A model generated the notes under the pieces. It had not been told where the DNA came from. It did no database searches and worked only from the letters and a program-made list of their open reading frames with translations. Shown here one piece after another: positions 5,549 to 20,077 of a stretch of 64,000 nucleotides of DNA (within the stretch, counting starts at the first letter, position 1; every line of letters begins with the position of its first letter). The DNA lies in NCBI RefSeq assembly GCF_937123705.1, contig NZ_CAKZKO010000004.1:1-64000 (forward strand), given 5' to 3'. A program made the translations under genes and the position numbers. Source of the DNA: an uncultured Paraglaciecola sp. (lineage in GTDB: Bacteria; Pseudomonadota; Gammaproteobacteria; Enterobacterales; Alteromonadaceae).

Positions 5549-6790
5549 ATGAAATTGTTTGGGACTAAACAATCCAAAAAGCGATTTAACAATAGGTTCT
5601 ATAAAAACTTTTTTGTTTTTATTTATTGTTTTTTTATATCGTTTGCAAGCCGCGCTCAACTTATTGAAAATGAACCATTTATAGAAACACTGGCTTTTAG
5701 TGGCATTACTTTTCAAGGAGGAAAACCCGAACGCGCTTCGTTATATCCTTTTAGTAGTGCCTTGGTAGAAGAGCATCAGTTAGCCCGAAACCTGTTTACT
5801 ATGTTAAAAACTGATCCCCCTGCTAATTTTCAGATTTCTCCGCGAATATTAGATAAGGATAAGGGGCAGCGCTTTGCTATCGCGTTAATGATTGACGGTG
5901 AATATATTAGTGAAGAAAGCTTTGTTGTTGATGGAGTTCGGCAGCATCGTCTAATGGCTGCACTGTCTGCGCAGATAGTCATGTTTGATGTTATACATTC
6001 TCAATTTATTGCTGCATTTCCACTTAAGCCAGTTGACTTACGTTCGATATACAATCGCCCTCCTACTCAACAACAAATTAAACAACAGATATTGAAGTTA
6101 TTAGTCAAAGGGGGAAGTGAAATTCCTAGTTTGTTGCAACAATTTGTGAGACTGCTCAAAGATTCACAAGGCCCTAAAAGCGCAGGTTTGGCTCAGTTGG
6201 CAGTGAGTTCAGTTACCATTAAAGACAAAGCGCAAAGTATTCTACCCAAGATTTTTAAAGAGAAAAACAACGGAGCTTTAAAACGTTTTGTGGCGCAGCA
6301 ATTATTAAAAAATATTTCTCAACAATGGCAAGTGGCTACTCAGCCTTATGTTGTTGATGCCAGTATATTAAAAATGCAAAGTCGCTTTACAGGTAAAGAT
6401 GTGACCTTCAATTTAGAGCTTCCTAAACCGCTATTTTCCATCGATTACACATTGCGGGGGTTCAAAAATGTGGTTCTCGACAAAAAAAAATCGGGTGAAA
6501 CCGTATTATTTGTGAGTTTTTCCAAATTTGATGTTTCAAAAACAAGTAAAGGAAAAGAAACTGTTTTTAGCAATAACTTGAAAAATGCAGTGAGTAAAGT
6601 TATTCCACGATCACTTGATAATATCGATGAATGGGCCGCATACCGAGAATCATTATTGGCTTTACTTCAAAAAACCTCATCAGATTTACACAACTCTCGT
6701 AGTGAGTTTTATAAAGCACAGAGCATAAATTCTAAGGTTAAAAAACAAATAGTAAAATTGGAAAAGGCTTATCAATTATGCAAACTCTAA
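5549..6790 (+). CDS. Exported protein of unknown function, first gene of the plus-strand block
   Basis: 413 residues. ATG at 5549 with AAGGA six bases upstream. The N-terminus is basic (about 1-20) followed by a hydrophobic stretch (FFVFIYCFFISFASRAQ), which is a signal peptide or N-terminal anchor. The rest is mixed alpha/beta with no Cys-rich or catalytic motif I recognise; the last about 60 residues are rich in Lys, Gln and Ser with coiled-coil-like spacing. The reading frame overlaps the next gene by 13 bases, so the two are probably made together. No family is recognised. Confidence 0.7.
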   Translation: MKLFGTKQSKKRFNNRFYKNFFVFIYCFFISFASRAQLIENEPFIETLAFSGITFQGGKPERASLYPFSSALVEEHQLARNLFTMLKTDPPANFQISPRILDKDKGQRFAIALMIDGEYISEESFVVDGVRQHRLMAALSAQIVMFDVIHSQFIAAFPLKPVDLRSIYNRPPTQQQIKQQILKLLVKGGSEIPSLLQQFVRLLKDSQGPKSAGLAQLAVSSVTIKDKAQSILPKIFKEKNNGALKRFVAQQLLKNISQQWQVATQPYVVDASILKMQSRFTGKDVTFNLELPKPLFSIDYTLRGFKNVVLDKKKSGETVLFVSFSKFDVSKTSKGKETVFSNNLKNAVSKVIPRSLDNIDEWAAYRESLLALLQKTSSDLHNSRSEFYKAQSINSKVKKQIVKLEKAYQLCKL

Positions 6791-7698
6791 ACAAACTCGC
6801 AGTGGTTTTTCTTTGTATTTTTTCAATGTTTTTGCACGCAGAGCAAGTTATAAGTGGTGTATCAATATTACCCATTCAAGGAAAAATAAACGATGAAATG
6901 CAACAACAAGGAATAAAAGAAGCGTTAGCAAATGGGGTGCGTCAATACTTTTCAGAAAACGAGCCAGGCTACTTACCTTTTTTTACAAAGCACACTACGC
7001 AAAAACAAATAGTGAAACGAATATTTGAGTTAGTGGGCAAGTACCAAGTCATAGAGCAGTCAAAAGAAAATGGAATGCTAAGTACTGAGGTGAGAGCAAT
7101 TCTTAAGGTTGAGCAACTAAAACAAAGACTAGCAAAATTTAGCACAATAAAACGCGTAACAAACGATACTCAGCGTTCGCAATTTGCTTTTGTTTTTTTG
7201 GCTAGAGTGAAATCTGACAACGGTTACAAACACTTGGAAATTAGTAGTGATATTGAAGCGCCAATTCAAAAGGTTTTTATACAAAATGGCTATAAAGTAC
7301 TATCCAATCATCAATTTGAACGATTAACAGGTAATGCTTTTAATCACTCATTAATGGAACAAAACTTTGTTAGAGACGGCAGCGTAGATTGGGATAAAGC
7401 CAGCTTAGCGGCTTACATGACGGCTGAATTAGGCAGTAATTTATACACAGTAGTGGGGACTTTCGAAATCGAAGAGGAAGAAAGAAACGAATTTGAACCA
7501 GACTTACAAACAATCTCAATCCGAGCCTTTGGACAAGTCAATGATATCACTAACGATAACGTCGGAACTTCAGCATCATTTGAGAAAAAATTTCAAGGGC
7601 TTTCATATTCAACTTTGATTCACGAAGCCCTGCACGAAGCCGGTCAACAAATTGCAACTCAATTAAACAATTCATTAATATCAAATGAAATATTCTAA
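6778..7698 (+). CDS. Secreted protein, weakly FlgT-N-like
   Basis: 306 residues with a short signal peptide (cleavage after HAEQ region, about residue 21). The mature N-terminus (VISGVSILPIQG, then a helix with GIKEALANGVRQYF) has the strand-helix pattern of FlgT/LPP20-type periplasmic domains, in which a glycine-led strand is followed by a long helix starting from an alanine-rich segment. This is a weak similarity. The start codon lies inside the end of the upstream gene, with AAGG nine bases before it. The following lipoprotein gene starts 12 bases downstream. Function unknown. Confidence 0.65.
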   Translation: MQTLNKLAVVFLCIFSMFLHAEQVISGVSILPIQGKINDEMQQQGIKEALANGVRQYFSENEPGYLPFFTKHTTQKQIVKRIFELVGKYQVIEQSKENGMLSTEVRAILKVEQLKQRLAKFSTIKRVTNDTQRSQFAFVFLARVKSDNGYKHLEISSDIEAPIQKVFIQNGYKVLSNHQFERLTGNAFNHSLMEQNFVRDGSVDWDKASLAAYMTAELGSNLYTVVGTFEIEEEERNEFEPDLQTISIRAFGQVNDITNDNVGTSASFEKKFQGLSYSTLIHEALHEAGQQIATQLNNSLISNEIF

Positions 7699-7710
7699 AA
7701 GGAAACATCA

Positions 7711-8439
7711 ATGAAGATTAGAGCCCTAGTAGTACTTGTTACAGCGTTGTCACTTTCTGCATGCCAAAGTACTTTAGAAAGTACAATGAGCACTATTTCT
7801 ACAGCTGCAACAAATGTAGTTAGTAATGTGATGAGTGAGTCTAATGAGCCCTCACAAGAAAACTTATCAAAACAGTTTAGAATTAACCCCGCTCTTGCAA
7901 GTCAGGATCATCTGTTAGCTGCATATGGCACCTCAGTTATTTTAATGTTTACAGCACAAGAAGTATGGTTAGATGCCATGGGAAATGAAGAAGGTGCAGC
8001 GCAATTAAGAACTGAACGGATAGCGTTAGAGAATGGGTCGGTCATTGATTCAGATGCGATTGATCGTTTTACTGAACTAAGTCAAGAAACAAAGGTACTT
8101 ATTGAAGAAACAGGAGAAAAAGAAGAAGCTATGTCTGACAAAGGAAAGTTAAAATTTGCGGCAGGTTGGGTACCCTACTTGGCTGGACTCTATCAAACTC
8201 GTGCTGTGGTCATGAAATCTTCAGATTATGCATCTGAAATCAATCGTTCCAAAGGTAACGTTAATTCACTACTTAGTAATGCCAAGAAAACCTTAATATT
8301 AACAACCTTTGTTCAATCATCTCCTGCATTTTTAAAAGTACAATATGATACTTTTGGACTAATTATGGACTATGCACGAGAGCAAGATATTGAAATCCCT
8401 GCTGATGCCAATTCGGTTTTACGTGACATCGAATTGTAG
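7711..8439 (+). CDS. Lipoprotein of unknown function
   Basis: 242 residues, ATG with AAAAGGAAA upstream. Signal peptide with lipobox LSAC (Cys at about 18), then a low-complexity Ser/Thr/Asn linker, then a mostly helical domain with an acidic middle. Residue +2 after the Cys is Gln, not Asp, so outer-membrane sorting is expected under the E. coli rule. No family recognised. It sits in an operon with two other exported proteins upstream and the paralogue at 8462 downstream. Confidence 0.75.
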   Translation: MKIRALVVLVTALSLSACQSTLESTMSTISTAATNVVSNVMSESNEPSQENLSKQFRINPALASQDHLLAAYGTSVILMFTAQEVWLDAMGNEEGAAQLRTERIALENGSVIDSDAIDRFTELSQETKVLIEETGEKEEAMSDKGKLKFAAGWVPYLAGLYQTRAVVMKSSDYASEINRSKGNVNSLLSNAKKTLILTTFVQSSPAFLKVQYDTFGLIMDYAREQDIEIPADANSVLRDIEL

Positions 8440-8461
8440 TTTATCTATTGAGCTAAAACAG

Positions 8462-9343
8462 ATGATTTTAAAAGTTGCCCTTTTGATTTTACCCATTGTT
8501 ATTTGCGGGTTGATACCAACGTCTAGCAAAGCTACGGGATCTCTTAACTTTATAGTTATGGGAGAAAACGCAGATCCTGATTCGATACCGCGCCATAGCC
8601 GTGTGTACGCTCGGGTACAAAATGCGCTCAAAGAACAGTTAAATGGGTATGGATACAATGTATTTGATGAAGTGGCTGCCACCAAAGGAATGTTGGCCAA
8701 TAAAAAAATTCGTCGCAGTGACAACGAACTGTTAAGCATTGCACGTACAGTTAGAGAGCCCTCAATGGATTTAGTGGTGTTATTCACAATATATGCCCGT
8801 ATTGTTGAAACTGAGTTAATGAATAAAATTGAGGCTCGGGTAGGCGGAAGGTTGCTTAGTGTACATACTGGCGAACAACTAGGAAGTTTTGAGTCTAGTT
8901 CGCCCCGCTCATGGCTTGCTGAAGCGAAATGTGATGTTCAATGTGTACAACGAACTTTAGGTTTGAACAGTCAATATCTCGCTAATGATGTGGGCGCAGT
9001 GTTGGCTGAACAAATGTCATATATCATTTCCCAAGGGTTTATCAGAAAATATTTACTTCGCTTTAATGATCTAGGCCTTGAGGAAGTTGAGGAGCTACAG
9101 TTAAAACTAACAGCTTTTGAAGGGCATAAGAGTTTAGTTATAAGCAACGGGCGCAAGCAACCGGAAATTTGGTACGAAACCATTTTTTCACCTTCTAAAA
9201 TGCAGAACGAATTACTTAAATTAATTCGCGTAAAGCATCCTTCAGCTCAAATTAGTCGCACCAACAATGTGCTGATTGTGACAAAAAACGTCCTCGAACC
9301 TACAAGTGAAATTAAGCTAAAACCTGTAGAAAGTGATTGGTAA
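8462..9343 (+). CDS. Secreted protein of the three-member local family (function unknown)
   Basis: The chosen ATG at 8462 begins the signal peptide (ILKVALLILPIVICG, cleavage near SSKA-TG) and lies 22 bases after the preceding stop; a longer frame opens at 8372 but overlaps the upstream gene and adds a non-signal extension. About 293 residues. It is the closest relative of 4162-5067: VMGENADPDSIPRHSRV, RRSDNELLSIARTV, GGRLLSVHTG, and a Cys pair (CDVQC). Its last residues are VESDW. Having one copy on each side of the divergent promoter region suggests an ancestral duplication followed by splitting of the two operons. Confidence 0.75.
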   Translation: MILKVALLILPIVICGLIPTSSKATGSLNFIVMGENADPDSIPRHSRVYARVQNALKEQLNGYGYNVFDEVAATKGMLANKKIRRSDNELLSIARTVREPSMDLVVLFTIYARIVETELMNKIEARVGGRLLSVHTGEQLGSFESSSPRSWLAEAKCDVQCVQRTLGLNSQYLANDVGAVLAEQMSYIISQGFIRKYLLRFNDLGLEEVEELQLKLTAFEGHKSLVISNGRKQPEIWYETIFSPSKMQNELLKLIRVKHPSAQISRTNNVLIVTKNVLEPTSEIKLKPVESDW

Positions 9344-12721: not shown

Positions 12722-13207
12722 CTATCCCCAGTGCACCAAGCCCACTTTATGCACATCTTTTAAAGCCAGTAATAATTGATCTAAATAGTTAAGTGCAAGG
12801 CTAATGGGTAAGCGTTTGGGTTTGGGTTTGTCTTCTGGCTCTAGCTCAGCAATCACAGTCGCATCGGTAGCGTCACTGCCTAATTCGTCTTTTAACGAAT
12901 GAGGTAAATACGGCATCACATAATAAGGCGTGCCATCGGGCATTTCGTCAAATTCAAATACGTCAACAATGTGGGGGTTACGGTTAAGTTGTCTTAAGGT
13001 TTTGGCTTCGTTTAAAAAACGCTGGTTTAACACCTCACCAGCATCAGACGTGGCACTGGTGGCCATCGCTGCCACATTGCTGTCTTTTACCTGAAATACC
13101 TTAATCGCTACCTGCTCACCTAAACGCGGGTCTTCGGCTAAATACACTGCGCCAAAGCCGCCGGCGCCAAGCTCCTTGATTATTTTGTATTTACCTATGT
13201 TTTGCAT
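12722..13207 (-). pseudogene. Truncated Ser/Thr kinase remnant (N-lobe only)
   Basis: 161 codons encode a normal kinase start ([24 protein letters not shown]) up to KVGLVH, where the intact paralogues continue into the RDIKPAN catalytic loop. Here the frame reads WG and stops. Homology ends exactly at the GTGCAC encoding Val-His, 18 bases from the stop codon of the protease gene on the other strand, so this looks like a rearrangement breakpoint. With no catalytic loop or DFG it cannot be an active kinase. The N-terminal 62 residues match the kinase at the left edge with one difference. Confidence 0.85.
13020..13207 (-). repeat. Direct repeat of the kinase N-terminal coding region (other copy at 1-188)
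   Basis: The 188 bases at 1-188 and those at 13020-13207 are about 92% identical and in the same orientation. They bracket about 12.8 kb that holds one kinase and the whole exported-protein block. Recombination between them could delete or duplicate that block. The left copy may extend beyond the window. Confidence 0.8.
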
Positions 13208-13315: not shown

Positions 13316-15397
13316 TTATTTAATTCCTAGCAGTTCTATTTCAAAAATAAGTATTGTATTTGGACCAATTTTACCCACCCCCTTTTTTCCATAAGCCAAT
13401 TCAGGTGGTATAGTCACTCTAAATTTACTGCCTACTGGCATTAAGAGCAGAGCTTCAGTAAATCCCAGAATTACTTTATTGACAGGGAAGTCAGAGGGAG
13501 CACCTCGTTGATAAGAGCTATCAAACTCGGTTCCATTAATAAAAGACCCTTTATAATGAACAGAAACGGATTGCTCTACGGTAGGTTTTTCACCCGAACC
13601 TAAAACTAGCTGTTCGTACTGTAAACCACTTTTGGTAACAATTACCCCTGGCTTTTTAGCATTTGCCTGTAAAAACAAACTTCTTTCTTTGGCATTACTA
13701 GGACTAGTAAGTGCTTGTTGAGATTTTTTAGCTTGTTCCTGATATTTGCCTATAGGATATTTGGTCATATAATCCTGATAAGACTGACTTGTGTTTATAC
13801 TTTGCGCTAGCTGCCAATCTTTCTGCTCTTGTTGTACAGCTTGGTCTTGAGCATTTTGAAGGCTTTTTCTCTCGGCGCTACTTTCATCGTTAAGCTGTTT
13901 TTGGTTAACTTGTTGCGTCTTTTTCTTATCGTTTTCTTTAAGTACTTCTTGGTTTTTCTCTGAAAATTGCTGGTCTTGGTAACTTTCGTAAGCAAGATAG
14001 CCCCCTCCACCCAAAACCAATAAGCTCACCATAACGAATATCAAACCCTTTACTCTTGAACTAGACCCATTTGGCATTCTAACGTTAACTTGATCTTGGT
14101 TATTTACCGCTGATTTATCGTCCACTTTCTTGGGGGCATAGGCCTTATAAATAACCTCTATTTTTGTTGTGGCCTGCTGAGTGTTTAAGCCAATATTACT
14201 GGCCGTATTTGTTAATATTTCAACCGTTTTTTCATTTAACTCATCAGCTTGAGCTTTTTGCCTAACTAATGCCAACCAGTTTTGAAGAGGTTTAAGCTGC
14301 GGGGCTAACTGATCACTGGTTTGCTTTATAAAATCATCTAATTGTGTTTTATCTAGACTCGCTATGGCGGCTAGCGCTTCTAATTGAAAGTACTCTTGCT
14401 TGGGTACTTCCCCTTCTCTTAAAATGATCTCGGTGACTTTATCTTTTAGCGGCTTAAGTTCTGCTTTGATGCTAGAGGTGTTATTACCTTCATCTATCCA
14501 TGTACCTGTGACTTCATCTTCCTGTGAATTACTTCCACCTTGCATTTGTTGCTCAGCTTGTTTGAGCATTTTCAACATTTTACTTGCGTCTACTGGCCTT
14601 TGGTCGGGCTGTAATTCTATGGCTTGTAGTATTAAGGCGTTTATGGCTTCGCCTATATTGGGGGCGAAGTGAATAGGGTCTTGAAAACGTCCTAAAGGTA
14701 ATTGTCCGGTTAACATACGATAAGCCAATATGCCTACGCTATAAATGTCGCTGCTCGGTGTGACATGTTTAGCGCTGTCGCGCTGCTCTGGGCTCATGTA
14801 ATTACGGCTGCCCATGCCCAAGCCGCTCTGGCTATGTTCAGCATCAGGTAATTTAGCAATACCAAAGTCGCACAGCTGCACTTGGCCTTTGTTATTCAGT
14901 AAAATATTGGCAGGTTTAATGTCGCGGTGCACTAAGCCACTTTTGTGTACTTCGCTTAAGGCTTCGAGTAATTGTTTTAAATACAAAATGGATTGTGCTG
15001 GTGCAATGGCTTTGGGGTGTAACTCTGGGCTGGTTTCTTCTATGGCACCTACGGTAAAGGCGTCTTTACCCATAACATCGACTAAAGAACGGGTTAAGTA
15101 CGGCATGATGTAATAGGGCGTGCCGTCTTCGAGTTCGTCAAACTCGTACATATCGACAATAAAGGGGTTAGACGATAATGTGCGTAAGGTTCTGGCTTCG
15201 TTAATAAAACGTTCGGTAAGTACACCAACGGCATCACTGGTGGCACTGGTGGCTTGACCAGCAATATTGGCGTCGCGTACTTGAAAAACCTTAATAGCAA
15301 CTTGCGTATGCAAGCGCGGGTCTTCGGCCAAATACACTGCGCCAAAGCCTCCGGCGCCAAGCTCCTTGATTATTCTGTATTTACCTATTTGCTGCAT
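13316..15397 (-). CDS. Membrane Ser/Thr protein kinase fused to an FKBP-type peptidyl-prolyl isomerase
   Basis: 693 residues. Intact kinase (Lys36, HRD 157-159, DFG 177-179, [10 protein letters not shown]), the conserved juxtamembrane region (about 297-395), one transmembrane helix (about 451-469), a charged coiled-coil-like spacer with one copy of the W-x-LA---T--SYQDY repeat (about 527-558), then a complete FKBP domain (about 590-692). The FKBP part carries FDSSYQRG, FPVNKVI, LMPVGSKFRV and IPPELAYG, as in Mip/FklB proteins; the usual active-site Trp is Phe (GFTEAL). By topology the isomerase is periplasmic. I know of no standard family with this order. ATG at 15397; the Sel1 fragment gene ends 20 bases upstream. 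Confidence 0.93.
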   Translation of the reverse strand: MQQIGKYRIIKELGAGGFGAVYLAEDPRLHTQVAIKVFQVRDANIAGQATSATSDAVGVLTERFINEARTLRTLSSNPFIVDMYEFDELEDGTPYYIMPYLTRSLVDVMGKDAFTVGAIEETSPELHPKAIAPAQSILYLKQLLEALSEVHKSGLVHRDIKPANILLNNKGQVQLCDFGIAKLPDAEHSQSGLGMGSRNYMSPEQRDSAKHVTPSSDIYSVGILAYRMLTGQLPLGRFQDPIHFAPNIGEAINALILQAIELQPDQRPVDASKMLKMLKQAEQQMQGGSNSQEDEVTGTWIDEGNNTSSIKAELKPLKDKVTEIILREGEVPKQEYFQLEALAAIASLDKTQLDDFIKQTSDQLAPQLKPLQNWLALVRQKAQADELNEKTVEILTNTASNIGLNTQQATTKIEVIYKAYAPKKVDDKSAVNNQDQVNVRMPNGSSSRVKGLIFVMVSLLVLGGGGYLAYESYQDQQFSEKNQEVLKENDKKKTQQVNQKQLNDESSAERKSLQNAQDQAVQQEQKDWQLAQSINTSQSYQDYMTKYPIGKYQEQAKKSQQALTSPSNAKERSLFLQANAKKPGVIVTKSGLQYEQLVLGSGEKPTVEQSVSVHYKGSFINGTEFDSSYQRGAPSDFPVNKVILGFTEALLLMPVGSKFRVTIPPELAYGKKGVGKIGPNTILIFEIELLGIK

Positions 15398-15417
15398 GGA
15401 AAACCCTATTAATGGCG

Positions 15418-15603
15418 CTACTGAAATTGCTTTAATTTTTCTTTGGCTCTTTTATAACCTTGCTCTACCGCTTTGCGGTACCAAAATACGGCTTGCTTAT
15501 CATCTTGTGCAACACCTTTTCCGTTCTGATACATATATCCAAGATTATTTTGCGCGTCAGCATAACCTTTTTGCACCGCTTGTGGTGTATTTTCCTTATG
15601 CAT
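15418..15603 (-). CDS. Short Sel1-repeat protein or remnant
   Basis: 61 residues from the ATG at 15603, preceded by AGGGTGAG. It holds one complete Sel1 repeat plus part of another ([32 protein letters not shown]) and no signal peptide. The DNA closely resembles the last Sel1 unit of the kinase gene at 190-2499, so this is probably the detached tail of a former kinase gene, possibly left when the 3' end of the neighbouring kinase was replaced. A small functional protein cannot be excluded, since it has its own ribosome binding site. Confidence 0.55.
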   Translation of the reverse strand: MHKENTPQAVQKGYADAQNNLGYMYQNGKGVAQDDKQAVFWYRKAVEQGYKRAKEKLKQFQ

Positions 15604-15623
15604 ACTCACCCTAAAAATATTTA

Positions 15624-15755
15624 ACAGCGCTACGCGCTGTACCTCCCCCAGCCCCTCCAAAGGAGGGTGGCAAAAGATGCAAAGGGACAAATTTGACCGG
15701 ATCAAATTTGAACAGCTTTAGCTGGCCCGCAGGGGAAATTACAGGGATGTAATTT
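15624..15755. repeat. Cluster of five perfect inverted repeats downstream of the FGE-kinase gene
   Basis: Within 132 bp there are five hairpins: ACAGCGC/GCGCTGT (15624-15640, loop 3), CCCTCC/GGAGGG (15653-15667, loop 3), CAAATTTGA/TCAAATTTG (15688-15710, loop 5), CAGCT/AGCTG (15713-15724, loop 2) and AAATTAC/GTAATTT (15736-15755, loop 6). None is followed by a long T-run in either direction, so they are not ordinary terminators. The segment begins 24 bases past the kinase stop codon and ends just before the Sel1 fragment gene. Confidence 0.85.
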
Positions 15756-15779
15756 ATAAAAAGAACAAAGGTCAAAGAA

Positions 15780-18700
15780 TTAAGGCCCTGGACGAGACGA
15801 CAACACCAAACGAAAACCGGTGTAGATGTTCCGATACGTGCGCGTGTTGATGTAGCGGTAAGCCGACCGCAAGCTGGCCGGTTTGAAGTACCACGAACCG
15901 CCGCGCAACACACGTTTGTCGCAATTGCCACTAGTCCAAGCACTGCCATTATTAGGGGCATTTTGGTATGAAACATTCCAACAATCTTGCGTCCATTCCC
16001 ATACATTGCCATGCATGTCGTATAAACCAAAGGCATTAGGACTAAAACTTTTTACAGAAACAGTTTTGCGGTCATTACCACAATCACCATCATAATTGCC
16101 ATAACGGGCTTGAGAGCAACTTATGTAATTACCCCAACTGAATTTTGTTGTGCTGCCGGCACGGGCGGCATATTCCCACTCCGCCTCACTAGGTAATCTA
16201 AACTTTTGCCCCGTATGTTTATTTAACCAAGGGATATAGTGTTGGGTGATGTCGTTCCAGCTCACATTGATAACTGGGCGATTACCTTTACCCCAACCTT
16301 TATCACCGCCGACACTGTTGTTATTAGGGCACGCACCTGCATCAATACAAGGCTGGTACATGGCCCATGTGACTTCGGTTTGCATTAGTTTAAAGGCCTT
16401 AATGTTAACTCGATGCACTGGCTTTTCATCATCATCGCCGTTTTCACTGCCCATCATAAAGCTGCCTGCGGGAATGCTTACTATACTATTGACCAACTGT
16501 TTGATGGCTGGGGGCATTGCTTTTTCTAACTGATAACTAAAGCTTTTATTATCGCTTCTTAGTGTTGCTGTGTGATTTTGACTGTGATAACCCTGCTTAC
16601 TGACTTTAATAGTATAGGTCTTGGGTAAAAGCCTGATACCTGCTTGGTACTTATCTTTAATATTCAGTATTTCTACCTTTGCATCACTAGGCGTGGTGGT
16701 AATAGTCAGGGCCACTTTTGAGTTTTCTAGCTCTATGGCCGCTATTTTTTGTTGGGCTTGTTGCCTGTAGGTACCTGTTGTTTGTTCGGCTAAGTATGTT
16801 TGGTAAGCGTTAATCGTGTTTGCTTGCTTGGCTTGACTCCAAGCCGATTCATCTTGTTTTTTGGCCTCTGTTTTAGCCATCAATCGTTGCTCTGCTTTTT
16901 TCGCTGTATTGTGTGCTGTTTTTGCTTGCTTTACATATTGCCCTTGTGGAAACGCTGTTAAATAAGTTTGATAGCCACGGCTCGTATGACTATTTTTGGC
17001 TTTATCCCATGCTGCGTTATCTTTTGTTTCATAAGACTTAACTAGCTCACTTATTAGAATATTATCCACCGCTCCTGTGACTAATAATCCTTCGGATTTT
17101 TCAAAAGCCTCAATCGCTTTTTGGGTGCGAGTATCTGTCATGCCATTTTCAGATACGGTATAACCATGTTTGATAAGTAGTTGTTGGGCTTGTTTAGTTA
17201 ATTCGGTCTGTTGCTGCTCAGTTGATAACTTAGCCAGCCTTGCTTGCTCTTGTAGCTTGTCGATGGCTGCTTTGGCTTGCTGTTTATGTTTACCTGTTGG
17301 CCAGGTATCTAAATACAGTTGATAACTTTGAACTGTATTTAGTTTTATCGCTTGTTGCCACGCGGCTTGTTCGTTCTTTTGGGCAATAGCCTGTTGTTGC
17401 TGCTCAATTTGCTGTTGTTGATAACCTTGGTAACCAAAATACCCACCGCCTATTAATAAAATAAGCACAACACTATACATCACGCTTTTACCCACACCTT
17501 TATTGGTTGTCTTTGTAGGTGGGTTATTGGCCTTATCATGGCTATGGGCTTTTGTGTTTTTACCTTCGATTATCTGAGTCAGCTCTGCTGCTGTTTTACC
17601 TGTGGTGGCTTCACCTGCACTGACTAGGGCACTTATCTGTGCTTGACTTAATGTTTTATTATGTTGTTGATGCTGTTTGTTTACCCCCAACACCCATTGC
17701 TGAAACGCTTTTTGTTGTGGGTCGATGTCAACCTGTTGTTGAATGATTTGTTCAATTAACGCAGACAGTCCAGCCGCATCCACATTGCCTATGTCCGCTA
17801 ACGCTTGTAATACAATTTTGTCTGAGTCTTTTATTTCACCTTGGGTGTGCAGCAGTGCAATGATTTTGTTTTTTAAGGGCTTTAACTCAGCCTTGATATC
17901 GGCTGTCTTGTCGTCTACCCAGGTGCCTGTGGCTTCGTCTACATCTTGAGATTCTGTGACACCTTTTATCGCTTGTTTAAATTGTTTTAAAAAGTCTGCG
18001 CCGTCTTGGGGTCTGTCTTGCTCTTGTTGTGATATAGCGTTGATTAACAATTCATTTAGTTTATCACCTATTTCCGGTGCAAACTCTTTGGGGGGTTTAA
18101 ACGGTATACTGGGCAACTGCCCAGTGAGCATTCGGTAAGCCAATACCCCTACACTATATACGTCACTGGCGGGCATCACATGTTTGGCGCTTTCTCTTTG
18201 CTCTGGGCTCATGTAATTACGGCTGCCCATACCTACGCCACTTTGGCTGTGTTCCGCGTCGGGTAGTTTGGCAATACCAAAGTCACACAGTTGCACGTTA
18301 CCTTGCTCGTCAAATAAAATATTGGCTGGTTTAATATCTCTGTGCACTAACCCTGCTTGGTGCACCGCACTTAAGGCATCCAGAATTTGTTCGAGTATAC
18401 TTAGAGCTTTTTGGCTGGCCAGCTTTCTTGGGTGTAGGTGTTTTGGTGTGTCTTCTAATTTACCGCGACTAAAAGCGTCTTTGCCAATTTCGGTTTCAAG
18501 TGATTGAGGCAAATACGGCATCACATAATAAGGCGTACCGTCTTCAAGTTCGTCAAAATCGCGAATATTCACTATGTATGGATTAGCCGATAATTTATGT
18601 AGCGTTTGGTATTCGTCCATGAAGCGTTGTTGTAATACACCTATAGCATCGGTTGAACTAGACGTTGCCTGTCCGGCTAAGTTTTCGTCGCGCACCTTGA

Positions 18701-18815
18701 ACACTTTAATGGCTACTTTGATGTCGCTAAAGCGAGTATCTTCGGCTAAATACACTGCTCCAAAGCCGCCGGCGCCTAATTCCCTTATAACCTTGTACTT
18801 ACCTATTTTTTCCAT
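15780..18815 (-). CDS. Membrane Ser/Thr protein kinase with PG-binding, PEGA and FGE/C-type-lectin-like domains
   Basis: About 1011 residues. ATG at 18815 lies two bases after the upstream stop; a GTG at 18821 would overlap it. Counting from the GTG: kinase domain (7-285; Lys39, HRD 160-162, DFG 180-182), juxtamembrane region (about 298-400), transmembrane helix (about 447-464), three copies of a W-x-x-A---T---YQ-YL repeat (about 487-521, 603-635, 660-692), a peptidoglycan-binding-1-like domain between them (about 540-595; NGMTDTRTQKAIEAFE), PEGA (about 702-768; TPSDAKVEILN), and an FGE-sulfatase/SUMF1 fold (about 780-1010; IPAGSFMMGS, EVTWAMY, RLPSEAEWEYAARAG, GNVWEWTQD, RGGSW, TGFRLV). The Cys residues used by true formylglycine-generating enzymes near RGGS are absent, so this is a binding fold, not that enzyme. 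The last ~40 codons are compositionally foreign. Confidence 0.93.
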   Translation of the reverse strand: MEKIGKYKVIRELGAGGFGAVYLAEDTRFSDIKVAIKVFKVRDENLAGQATSSSTDAIGVLQQRFMDEYQTLHKLSANPYIVNIRDFDELEDGTPYYVMPYLPQSLETEIGKDAFSRGKLEDTPKHLHPRKLASQKALSILEQILDALSAVHQAGLVHRDIKPANILFDEQGNVQLCDFGIAKLPDAEHSQSGVGMGSRNYMSPEQRESAKHVMPASDVYSVGVLAYRMLTGQLPSIPFKPPKEFAPEIGDKLNELLINAISQQEQDRPQDGADFLKQFKQAIKGVTESQDVDEATGTWVDDKTADIKAELKPLKNKIIALLHTQGEIKDSDKIVLQALADIGNVDAAGLSALIEQIIQQQVDIDPQQKAFQQWVLGVNKQHQQHNKTLSQAQISALVSAGEATTGKTAAELTQIIEGKNTKAHSHDKANNPPTKTTNKGVGKSVMYSVVLILLIGGGYFGYQGYQQQQIEQQQQAIAQKNEQAAWQQAIKLNTVQSYQLYLDTWPTGKHKQQAKAAIDKLQEQARLAKLSTEQQQTELTKQAQQLLIKHGYTVSENGMTDTRTQKAIEAFEKSEGLLVTGAVDNILISELVKSYETKDNAAWDKAKNSHTSRGYQTYLTAFPQGQYVKQAKTAHNTAKKAEQRLMAKTEAKKQDESAWSQAKQANTINAYQTYLAEQTTGTYRQQAQQKIAAIELENSKVALTITTTPSDAKVEILNIKDKYQAGIRLLPKTYTIKVSKQGYHSQNHTATLRSDNKSFSYQLEKAMPPAIKQLVNSIVSIPAGSFMMGSENGDDDEKPVHRVNIKAFKLMQTEVTWAMYQPCIDAGACPNNNSVGGDKGWGKGNRPVINVSWNDITQHYIPWLNKHTGQKFRLPSEAEWEYAARAGSTTKFSWGNYISCSQARYGNYDGDCGNDRKTVSVKSFSPNAFGLYDMHGNVWEWTQDCWNVSYQNAPNNGSAWTSGNCDKRVLRGGSWYFKPASLRSAYRYINTRTYRNIYTGFRLVLSSRPGP
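15795..15914 (-). other. Candidate diversity-generating retroelement variable region (3' end of FGE-like domain)
   Basis: From RVLRGGSW to TGFRLV, 27 of 33 codons end in G or C (about 82%), against 6 of 22 (27%) in the block just upstream (NYISCSQARYGNYDGDCGND). At the positions that vary in FGE-type retroelement targets the codons are TAC, TTC, AGC, TAC, TAC, ATC, AAC, AAC, ATC and TAC, all of NNC form, as expected from mutagenised AAC template codons. The constant end (GGT TTT CGT TTG GTG) would be the homing-initiation part. No template repeat or reverse transcriptase is visible here. Confidence 0.55.
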
Positions 18816-18817
18816 GG

Positions 18818-20077
18818 TCACGACCCTGTTAACTGCAATGAATAATGACTTAGAATATTATTCTTTAAATGCTTATTGTTTGATTGAATACTATCTATAA
18901 AGCCTTGAATATCCAAGGTTTGATTGTCAGGGTAATTAAATAAATATTGGCGTATTTGGCTCACATCATCTTCTGATAAAGCTAACGAGAATGTTATTAC
19001 TATAACTTTAGCTGGTCGTTTAGGTACGGGAATTGCCCAGTGTTCCTTCACCTTTTTGCCTAATACAAATAGATGAGATTGCAGGTTAACGGCCATAAGC
19101 GACGCAACTTGTTCAGCCGCTACAATGCTAATTTTGCATAAGTTTTGGTGGGGCTGGCTAACAGGATTTTGTACAGTTAAAAATTGCGAGATTGCTGACT
19201 TATTAATCTGTGAACAATTATTTTGATTTGCATAGCTAAAATTGGCTGTTAAACCAAGAGGATAATTTACCTTAGTGGCTTGGGAATTGGCTAATGAATT
19301 AGGCCTTTGTGTAGTTTGTTTTATAGGGTTAGGTTTAACCTGTTGGAGCGCAGCAGATTGTGTTTGTAATGAAAAATCAAAACTAAATGCAGCTACTCCT
19401 ACCAACAAAGCTAGCATGAATATTATCAACCAATGTGTGACACGGATTGTTTTAGCTGTTGCGACTTGTACTACTTGGGTGTTGGGCGTTGCTTTTGGTG
19501 AACTATTATGACTGCTTGATGTTGCGGCTTGCGCAGGAAAGGTGGCCATTGCTTGTTCAAGGGTATTAACACCCAAAATAGCTATGTTTGATGTCTGTAT
19601 ATTTAACTCATGTAGATTTTGAGTAGGCACTAAAAAGCTAATGTCGATATTGCTTTGCCATGCTGCAATAGTATCAGCGGCTTTAGCGACTTTTAGCGGT
19701 ACTTGTTGCACAGGTAAGACAAGCCTTTCACTGGTATTGAGTTCGCCCGTTGCAATTAATACTTTGTCACCCGCTTTTGGGGAGCCATCACCTAATAATT
19801 CGCGATAATGGGCAGCATGAGCCAAATAAAAGCCAAGTTGCCAACTATTCCCTTGATCGATTGATGCACTTACATTGACACGATAGGACGAGTCACCAAA
19901 ATCAGCTTCTATGATCCCTGCCCCTTTTCGGACAAAATTATGGTATGCCGAGGTTATAGGAGAAACGGTTGGTGTTCCTCGAACAGACACCACAGACTGA
20001 ATATCTGCGTCTTGAGCGTATATTTTTTGAATAGCGACCAATCCCTGTGTAGTCGCAACAAAAACGTGTAATTTCAT
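18818..20077 (-). CDS. Single-pass membrane protein with degenerate Lon-protease (S16)-like domain
   Basis: 419 residues. The N-terminal half (about 60-180) follows the Lon proteolytic-domain pattern: GNSWQLGFYLAHA where Lon has GPSAG and a helix, ATGELN and LPVQQVP where Lon has TGEI and LPxGGLKEK, then a KVAKA helix, FLVPTQNLHEL and VNTLEQAM matching the final helix/strand layout. Ser78 could correspond to the Lon nucleophile, but the catalytic Lys position reads Pro (127), so protease activity is doubtful. A transmembrane helix follows (about 215-233) and then a periplasmic part. It ends two bases before the start of the downstream kinase, so its product probably works with that kinase. 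The Lon relation is inference from pattern. Confidence 0.75.
   Translation of the reverse strand: MKLHVFVATTQGLVAIQKIYAQDADIQSVVSVRGTPTVSPITSAYHNFVRKGAGIIEADFGDSSYRVNVSASIDQGNSWQLGFYLAHAAHYRELLGDGSPKAGDKVLIATGELNTSERLVLPVQQVPLKVAKAADTIAAWQSNIDISFLVPTQNLHELNIQTSNIAILGVNTLEQAMATFPAQAATSSSHNSSPKATPNTQVVQVATAKTIRVTHWLIIFMLALLVGVAAFSFDFSLQTQSAALQQVKPNPIKQTTQRPNSLANSQATKVNYPLGLTANFSYANQNNCSQINKSAISQFLTVQNPVSQPHQNLCKISIVAAEQVASLMAVNLQSHLFVLGKKVKEHWAIPVPKRPAKVIVITFSLALSEDDVSQIRQYLFNYPDNQTLDIQGFIDSIQSNNKHLKNNILSHYSLQLTGS

Follow-up and report, generated by a model that had tools for sequence, protein, structure and literature searches.

Does the 3' end of a Ser/Thr kinase gene in the draft genome of an uncultured Paraglaciecola sp. 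represent the variable region (VR) of a diversity-generating retroelement (DGR), and, if so, where is the cassette that would have written it? Such a cassette holds a template repeat (TR), an Avd gene and a reverse transcriptase (RT) gene. An earlier note, made from the DNA letters, had proposed that the tail of the kinase is being hypervaried in trans. We followed up this proposal in the window (the whole 64-kb stretch of DNA analysed, whose base 1 is base 1 of contig C4), in the remainder of the assembly, and in other genomes, plasmids and phages. The assembly is a 5.57-Mb draft of 228 contigs, with a completeness of 94.18% and a contamination of 8.61%.

The kinase-FGE gene and its neighbourhood

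The features of the gene and its surroundings are listed in Table 1. The encoded protein has the properties of a Hanks-type Ser/Thr kinase with an exported sensor, that is the kinase motifs and one transmembrane segment, the orientation of which is a prediction. With this segment as the single one recognized by hydropathy (around residues 442-465 or 446-464), the FGE end is predicted to be extracytoplasmic. The layout is also that of a DGR target, with a PF03781 fold, assigned from the amino acid sequence, and, in the last 44 codons, a VR-like segment. A further mark of DGR targets, a TR from which the VR differs at template adenines alone, was not found for this gene in the assembled draft. 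The FGE-sulfatase domain had PvdO, FGE and Treponema denticola variable protein 1 as sequence relatives in the PDB.

Table 1 Features of the kinase-FGE gene and of the kinase copies around it. Nucleotide positions are those of the window; domain positions are residues of the kinase-FGE protein.
Feature	Position	Strand	Remarks
Kinase copy, 5' end, cut by the start of C4	1..190	-	94.7% DNA identity to a kinase on contig C191
Truncated kinase copy	12722..13207	-	12731-13207 is 92.7% DNA-identical to the same C191 kinase
Region downstream of the kinase-FGE gene	15398..15779	-	no TR, Avd or RT detected
Kinase-FGE gene	15780..18821	-	protein of 1013 aa
LSSRPGP C-terminal extension	15783..15803	-	7 codons after the VR core
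Putative DGR VR	15804..15914	-	37 codons, RVLRGGSWYFKPASLRSAYRYINTRTYRNIYTGFRLV; GC3 island, NNC codons, framework matching TRs/VRs of DGR loci
FGE-sulfatase / C-type-lectin-like domain	residues 778-1006; 15804..16490	-	Pfam PF03781, E 1.7e-55; VR inside
Pkinase domain	residues 9-253		Pfam; VAIK, HRD and DFG motifs present
Hydrophobic transmembrane segment	about residues 442-465		hydropathy only
PG_binding_1 (peptidoglycan-binding-like)	residues 541-587		Pfam

The earlier note had placed the tail correctly. Read on the minus strand, RVLRGGSW begins with its Arg codon at 15914, and 15783 is the final base of the last sense codon. Direct reading of 15783-15914 revealed no cysteine, in agreement with the claim that the catalytic Cys pair of FGE is absent; we take this pair to belong in the C-terminal segment.

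The kinase genes of this region form a repetitive array. The adjacent kinase (13316-15397 of the window) ends in an FKBP-type peptidyl-prolyl isomerase, and not in an FGE domain. Three kinase-FGE paralogues, one of them cut by the contig end, are found on contig C191 (locus L055, 5570-15118), and their VR-like tails are in differing states. Two of these paralogues have a common 3' flank, and in one there are 19 bases that occur unchanged in the repeat region of L118, a complete DGR locus described below. C4 starts inside one kinase copy and C191 stops within a second one; contig breaks caused by the array are therefore probable, and a DGR could lie in an assembly gap. Parts of the region downstream of the kinase-FGE gene, 48 and 63 bases long, recur at two other places of the genome with identities of 83% and 79%. 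This region was considered as a remnant of a cassette and rejected, its two partial matches not lying beside a visible TR, VR or DGR gene.

Codon signature of the 3' end

The 37 codons from RVLRGGSW to GFRLV had a GC content at third positions (GC3) of 0.78, or 0.73 with the 7-codon tail added. GC3 was 0.32 in the preceding 50 codons, 0.37 in the preceding 30 and 0.38 in the upstream gene. In 37-codon windows upstream of the VR, it averaged 0.38 (SD 0.08) and reached a maximum of 0.57. Since no other 37-codon stretch exceeded this maximum, the codon observation of the earlier note is real. The contrast that it had reported (82% versus 27%) was thus recovered, its exact figures being somewhat too extreme.

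The variable-type codons of the VR are TAC, TTC, AGC, TAC, TAC, ATC, AAC, TAT, AAC, ATC and TAC. That these codons favour a final C had been noticed before, and it stands: given the amino acids and the gene's own codon use, the probability that all ten C-ending ones end so is 5.4e-6, a value that ignores the raised GC of the segment. At the ten columns occupied by Asn in known TRs, the kinase VR has nine NNC codons and one NNT (10/10 NNY). C-ending codons amount to only 17% in the VR framework, compared with 9/10 at the variable columns.

The same count was made for other tails, leaving out identical DNA copies and tails with any of the ten columns missing. At least nine NNC codons were present in 38/59 VRs from loci with a DGR-like RT, in 28/63 tails from IMG/VR, and in 9/41 non-template tails of those genome_contigs loci in which an RT was not detected. 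The proportion was 1/45 in a group of relatives that took in every locus not placed elsewhere and may contain DGR targets; the one tail was that of the complete L118 DGR, included as L244. NNY codons at all ten columns were also seen in 9/45 tails of this group. The tails of the three C191 paralogues had 1, 4 and 5 NNC codons at the ten columns.

Comparisons with templates and homologues were also made. Measured against four heterologous TRs (ungapped 35-codon tails kept), the VR framework had a non-A mismatch of 0.25, narrowly below the lowest of 44 relative tails (0.26). The excess of mismatches at A against the same foreign TRs was dropped as evidence for a VR, because the relatives scored the same, with 14/44 tails equalling or exceeding the kinase VR. 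In each of four comparisons with homologues, all with small numbers, the VR had fewer synonymous codons in common with the homologue than did the 70 codons before it. The RG...R..GFR framework also occurs in FGE-like proteins such as PvdO, for which we know of no DGR.

Template, RT and Avd in the genome

Searches of the own assembly, in which all candidates were scored, used the VR DNA, a 40-residue TR/VR profile, the L118 TR region, RVT_1, the L118 RT and bAvd. With the first three, no matching TR was found in the 228 contigs, and the template repeat that the earlier note had expected somewhere in the genome did not turn up. The assembly being a draft with a completeness of 94.18%, this lack of a template is not proof. 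RVT_1 gave five matches, two of them DGR-type RTs on contigs C6 and C198; the other three match the C6 RT much more weakly. The RVT_1, L118 RT and bAvd searches detected no further DGR-type RT or Avd in the 5.57 Mb. Among 22 genus genomes, bAvd matched only the own one, at the C6 site. The genome has two DGR-type RTs and one Avd, which lie in phage-tail contexts.

The DGR on C6 (L007, C6:6000-19000, 5901-8850, minus strand) comprises an RT, an Avd and an FGE-like tail protein among phage tail genes. Its template encodes NRFPLRGGNWNNGSNAGLGALNLNNARS, and the mismatches between its repeat core and its own tail gene are all at A (16/16). The DGR-type RT on C198 (L006, C198:20000-26911, 5851-6912, minus strand) is adjoined by a contractile-tail gene set and is identical to the C6 RT in 340/353 residues. 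Its locus belongs either to a second prophage or to a co-binned strain, the contamination being 8.61%. C198 ends inside the RT, so its template would be beyond the contig end, where it is not readable.

A 30-base match of the VR on contig C139 was rejected, as the ORF that holds it is unrelated and does not encode an FGE protein. A degenerate pattern for the middle of the predicted template found nothing in genome_contigs or viral_contigs, and neither did two patterns for the 5' framework in viral_contigs. A protein search with the 44-residue tail retrieved 5 phage and 27 plasmid records, all below 60% identity.

Related loci with complete or decayed DGRs

An Alteromonadaceae MAG (JALUXV010000509.1, locus L118) encodes a kinase-FGE protein of 1012 aa, followed by a TR, an Avd and an RT, the latter two confirmed by Pfam. 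The protein is 43% identical to the kinase-FGE protein across residues 3-1006 of the latter, and the two genes are alike in their kinase / PG_binding / FGE architecture, in length and in the place of the VR. They differ in that L118 has a complete cassette in cis, and in the 3' end of the repeat and its flank. In the L118 repeat core, 11/13 VR-TR mismatches are at template A. Judged by sequence, a related genome therefore has this type of kinase as the cis target of a DGR.

The VR DNA, used without any inferred template, matched six others among 369 class genomes, the own genome included, with at most two first-look candidates scored per genome. Two of the six matches, L267 and L270, have VR, TR, Avd and RT in the locus, with Avd and RT confirmed by Pfam, and all their repeat mismatches are at template A (15/15 and 19/19, respectively). 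L267 contains the first 24 bases of the kinase VR without any change. In L270, the Avd of which is on the opposite strand, the VR/TR core is followed by TTGTCGTCT, as it is in the C-terminal extension of the kinase (15783..15803).

Alteromonas hispanica LMG 22958 (L141, 7720-8430) has kept a kinase-FGE VR and its TR, while the Avd is cut after 41 codons. RVT_1 had no match in this genome. The locus is a decay intermediate. It resembles the kinase-FGE gene in having a kinase-FGE VR and no RT match in the genome, and differs from it in that the TR and the truncated Avd adjoin the VR and that the protein is shorter (784 aa).

The genome sets searched contain one genome per species. In genome_contigs (84,980 species), an alignment of the tail and the inferred template peptide retrieved 118 relatives. 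The best 80 were retained, and 52/80 have an ORF related to the C6 DGR RT. Template-free tests were added, because this query is biased toward templates. In the best 80 of the 118 relatives and the 33 loci of another search, a related kinase is combined with a VR-like tail in six ORFs, four of which have an RT in the locus. The TR/VR profile, at E <=1e-11, matched 7/395 family genomes, own included (at most 18 first-look candidates scored per genome). The tails read from these 7/395 genomes were all in-frame FGE tails, with no template among them. In the single-contig genome G795, two tails about 3 Mb apart (L272 near 6013 and L273 near 5924) resemble each other in their VR-like framework but not in their variable codons; they look like remote DGR targets.

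Origin of the putative kinase VR

The codon signature, the framework similarity and the L118 DGR support the reading of the tail as a putative DGR VR fused to a Ser/Thr kinase. This part of the earlier reading is retained; ongoing hypervariation in trans would call for a matching TR, and none is present in the draft. For the same reason, the kinase VR is not assignable to a DGR. We consider it likely that a genuine DGR VR forms the 3' end of the kinase-FGE gene, its cassette being in an assembly gap or deleted. Mutagenic retrohoming from a GC-richer template repeat would have written this end at least once, turning Asn codons (AAC) of the template into NNC codons at likely ligand-facing positions of the exported FGE/C-type-lectin-like sensor. 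The varied face of the sensor domain may bind something outside the inner membrane, and ligand binding would change the activity of the kinase, the signal passing through its cytoplasmic Ser/Thr kinase domain. The TR/Avd/RT cassette may be remote, in an assembly gap, or may have been deleted, leaving a frozen VR; we rate the two about equally.

If the gene is an active remote target, a complete DGR with a matching TR would reside in the unassembled part of the genome or on an extrachromosomal element and act in trans. This is tenable, though we stop short of calling it probable. The kinase copies at the start of C4 and the end of C191, together with the completeness of 94.18%, leave room for such a locus; to judge from the high GC3 and the intact NNC codons, the VR has drifted little since it was written; and remote and trans targets have been published (PMC7517822, PMC10907252). 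However, neither a matching TR nor another DGR-type RT or Avd was found in the 5.57 Mb, bAvd matched in 0 of the other 21 genus genomes searched, and 72,556 plasmid and 50,697 phage records gave no match. A fossil VR, in which the cassette of an ancestor or donor was deleted and a fixed sensor variant was left, is equally possible in view of A. hispanica, which has lost the RT and most of the Avd and kept VR and TR. The tails of the C191 paralogues look like older VRs, one with the 19 bases of the L118 repeat region, and removal of the machinery after selection of a variant has been suggested from Nostoc all3226 (PMC7517822). A fossil fits less well with a segment that has not been ameliorated toward the codon use of its gene, and with the finding that no remnants of TR, Avd or RT were detected downstream of the kinase-FGE gene.

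A GC-rich donor would also give part of the codon signal, which speaks against a VR. Ordinary recombination with a GC-rich FGE gene, whether homologous or illegitimate, could then have replaced the 3' end, a DGR never having acted. FGE tails widely have the same framework, GC3 is high throughout the segment and not in the variable codons alone, and the A-bias against foreign TRs is not above that of the relatives. We nevertheless regard such a replacement as unlikely: C-ending codons make up 17% of the framework and 9/10 of the variable codons, complete DGR loci are among the nearest matches at the DNA level, and no near-identical donor was found in 196 relatives (at most four candidates scored per genome) or in 369 class genomes (at most two). 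Highly improbable is the writing of the kinase by a phage-associated DGR of the own genome. C6 does possess an Avd, an RT and a tail-protein target, and C198 a nearly identical second RT, but the C6 template is a different repeat, paired with its own tail gene by mismatches at A throughout, and the VR DNA and the TR/VR profile match neither C6 nor C198. The C6 DGR is nearly excluded as the writer.

Comparison with known systems and significance

In cyanobacteria, PMC7517822 describes DGR targets of the kinase-CLec type together with remote targets, and also one paralogue that retains remnant TR-VR homology but lacks a proximal RT. As in the kinase-FGE gene, a Ser/Thr kinase at the N-terminus is joined in these targets to a C-terminal CLec domain whose VR occupies the 3' terminus, and the remote ones have no adjoining RT. 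They belong to a different phylum, and for the kinase-FGE VR the assembly holds no matching TR. Trans diversification and disrupted loci are described for Thiohalocapsa PB-PSB1 (PMC10907252), where CLec targets are fused to signalling or conflict domains, Pkinase being listed, and where incomplete and trans loci likewise occur; unlike here, nine DGR loci are reported in its genome. The words kinase and FGE are absent from the main text of PMC8144416. The kinase-FGE VR belongs to a known kind, the DGR-targeted kinase-CLec proteins. A less common feature is the gradation seen around a single kinase family, from complete through RT-deleted to template-less members.

The analysis suggests that a VR can be recognized from codon evidence without its template, within the limit that a surplus of A mismatches relative to foreign templates does not discriminate. 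The fresh VR in the kinase-FGE gene, the decayed VRs on C191, the TR-plus-Avd remnant in A. hispanica and the complete L118 locus led us to a further reading, which we put forward as speculative and rather doubtful: DGRs may here be transient generators, by which an array is diversified, the RT cassette is repeatedly lost, and the variants once written persist as sensor kinases of a fixed repertoire. With the kinase-FGE gene, the lineages that link a DGR to Ser/Thr kinase signalling would gain a further member. The complete, RT-deleted and template-less loci form a comparison set that may be used to follow what becomes of a hypermutated sensor once its mutating enzyme has been lost.
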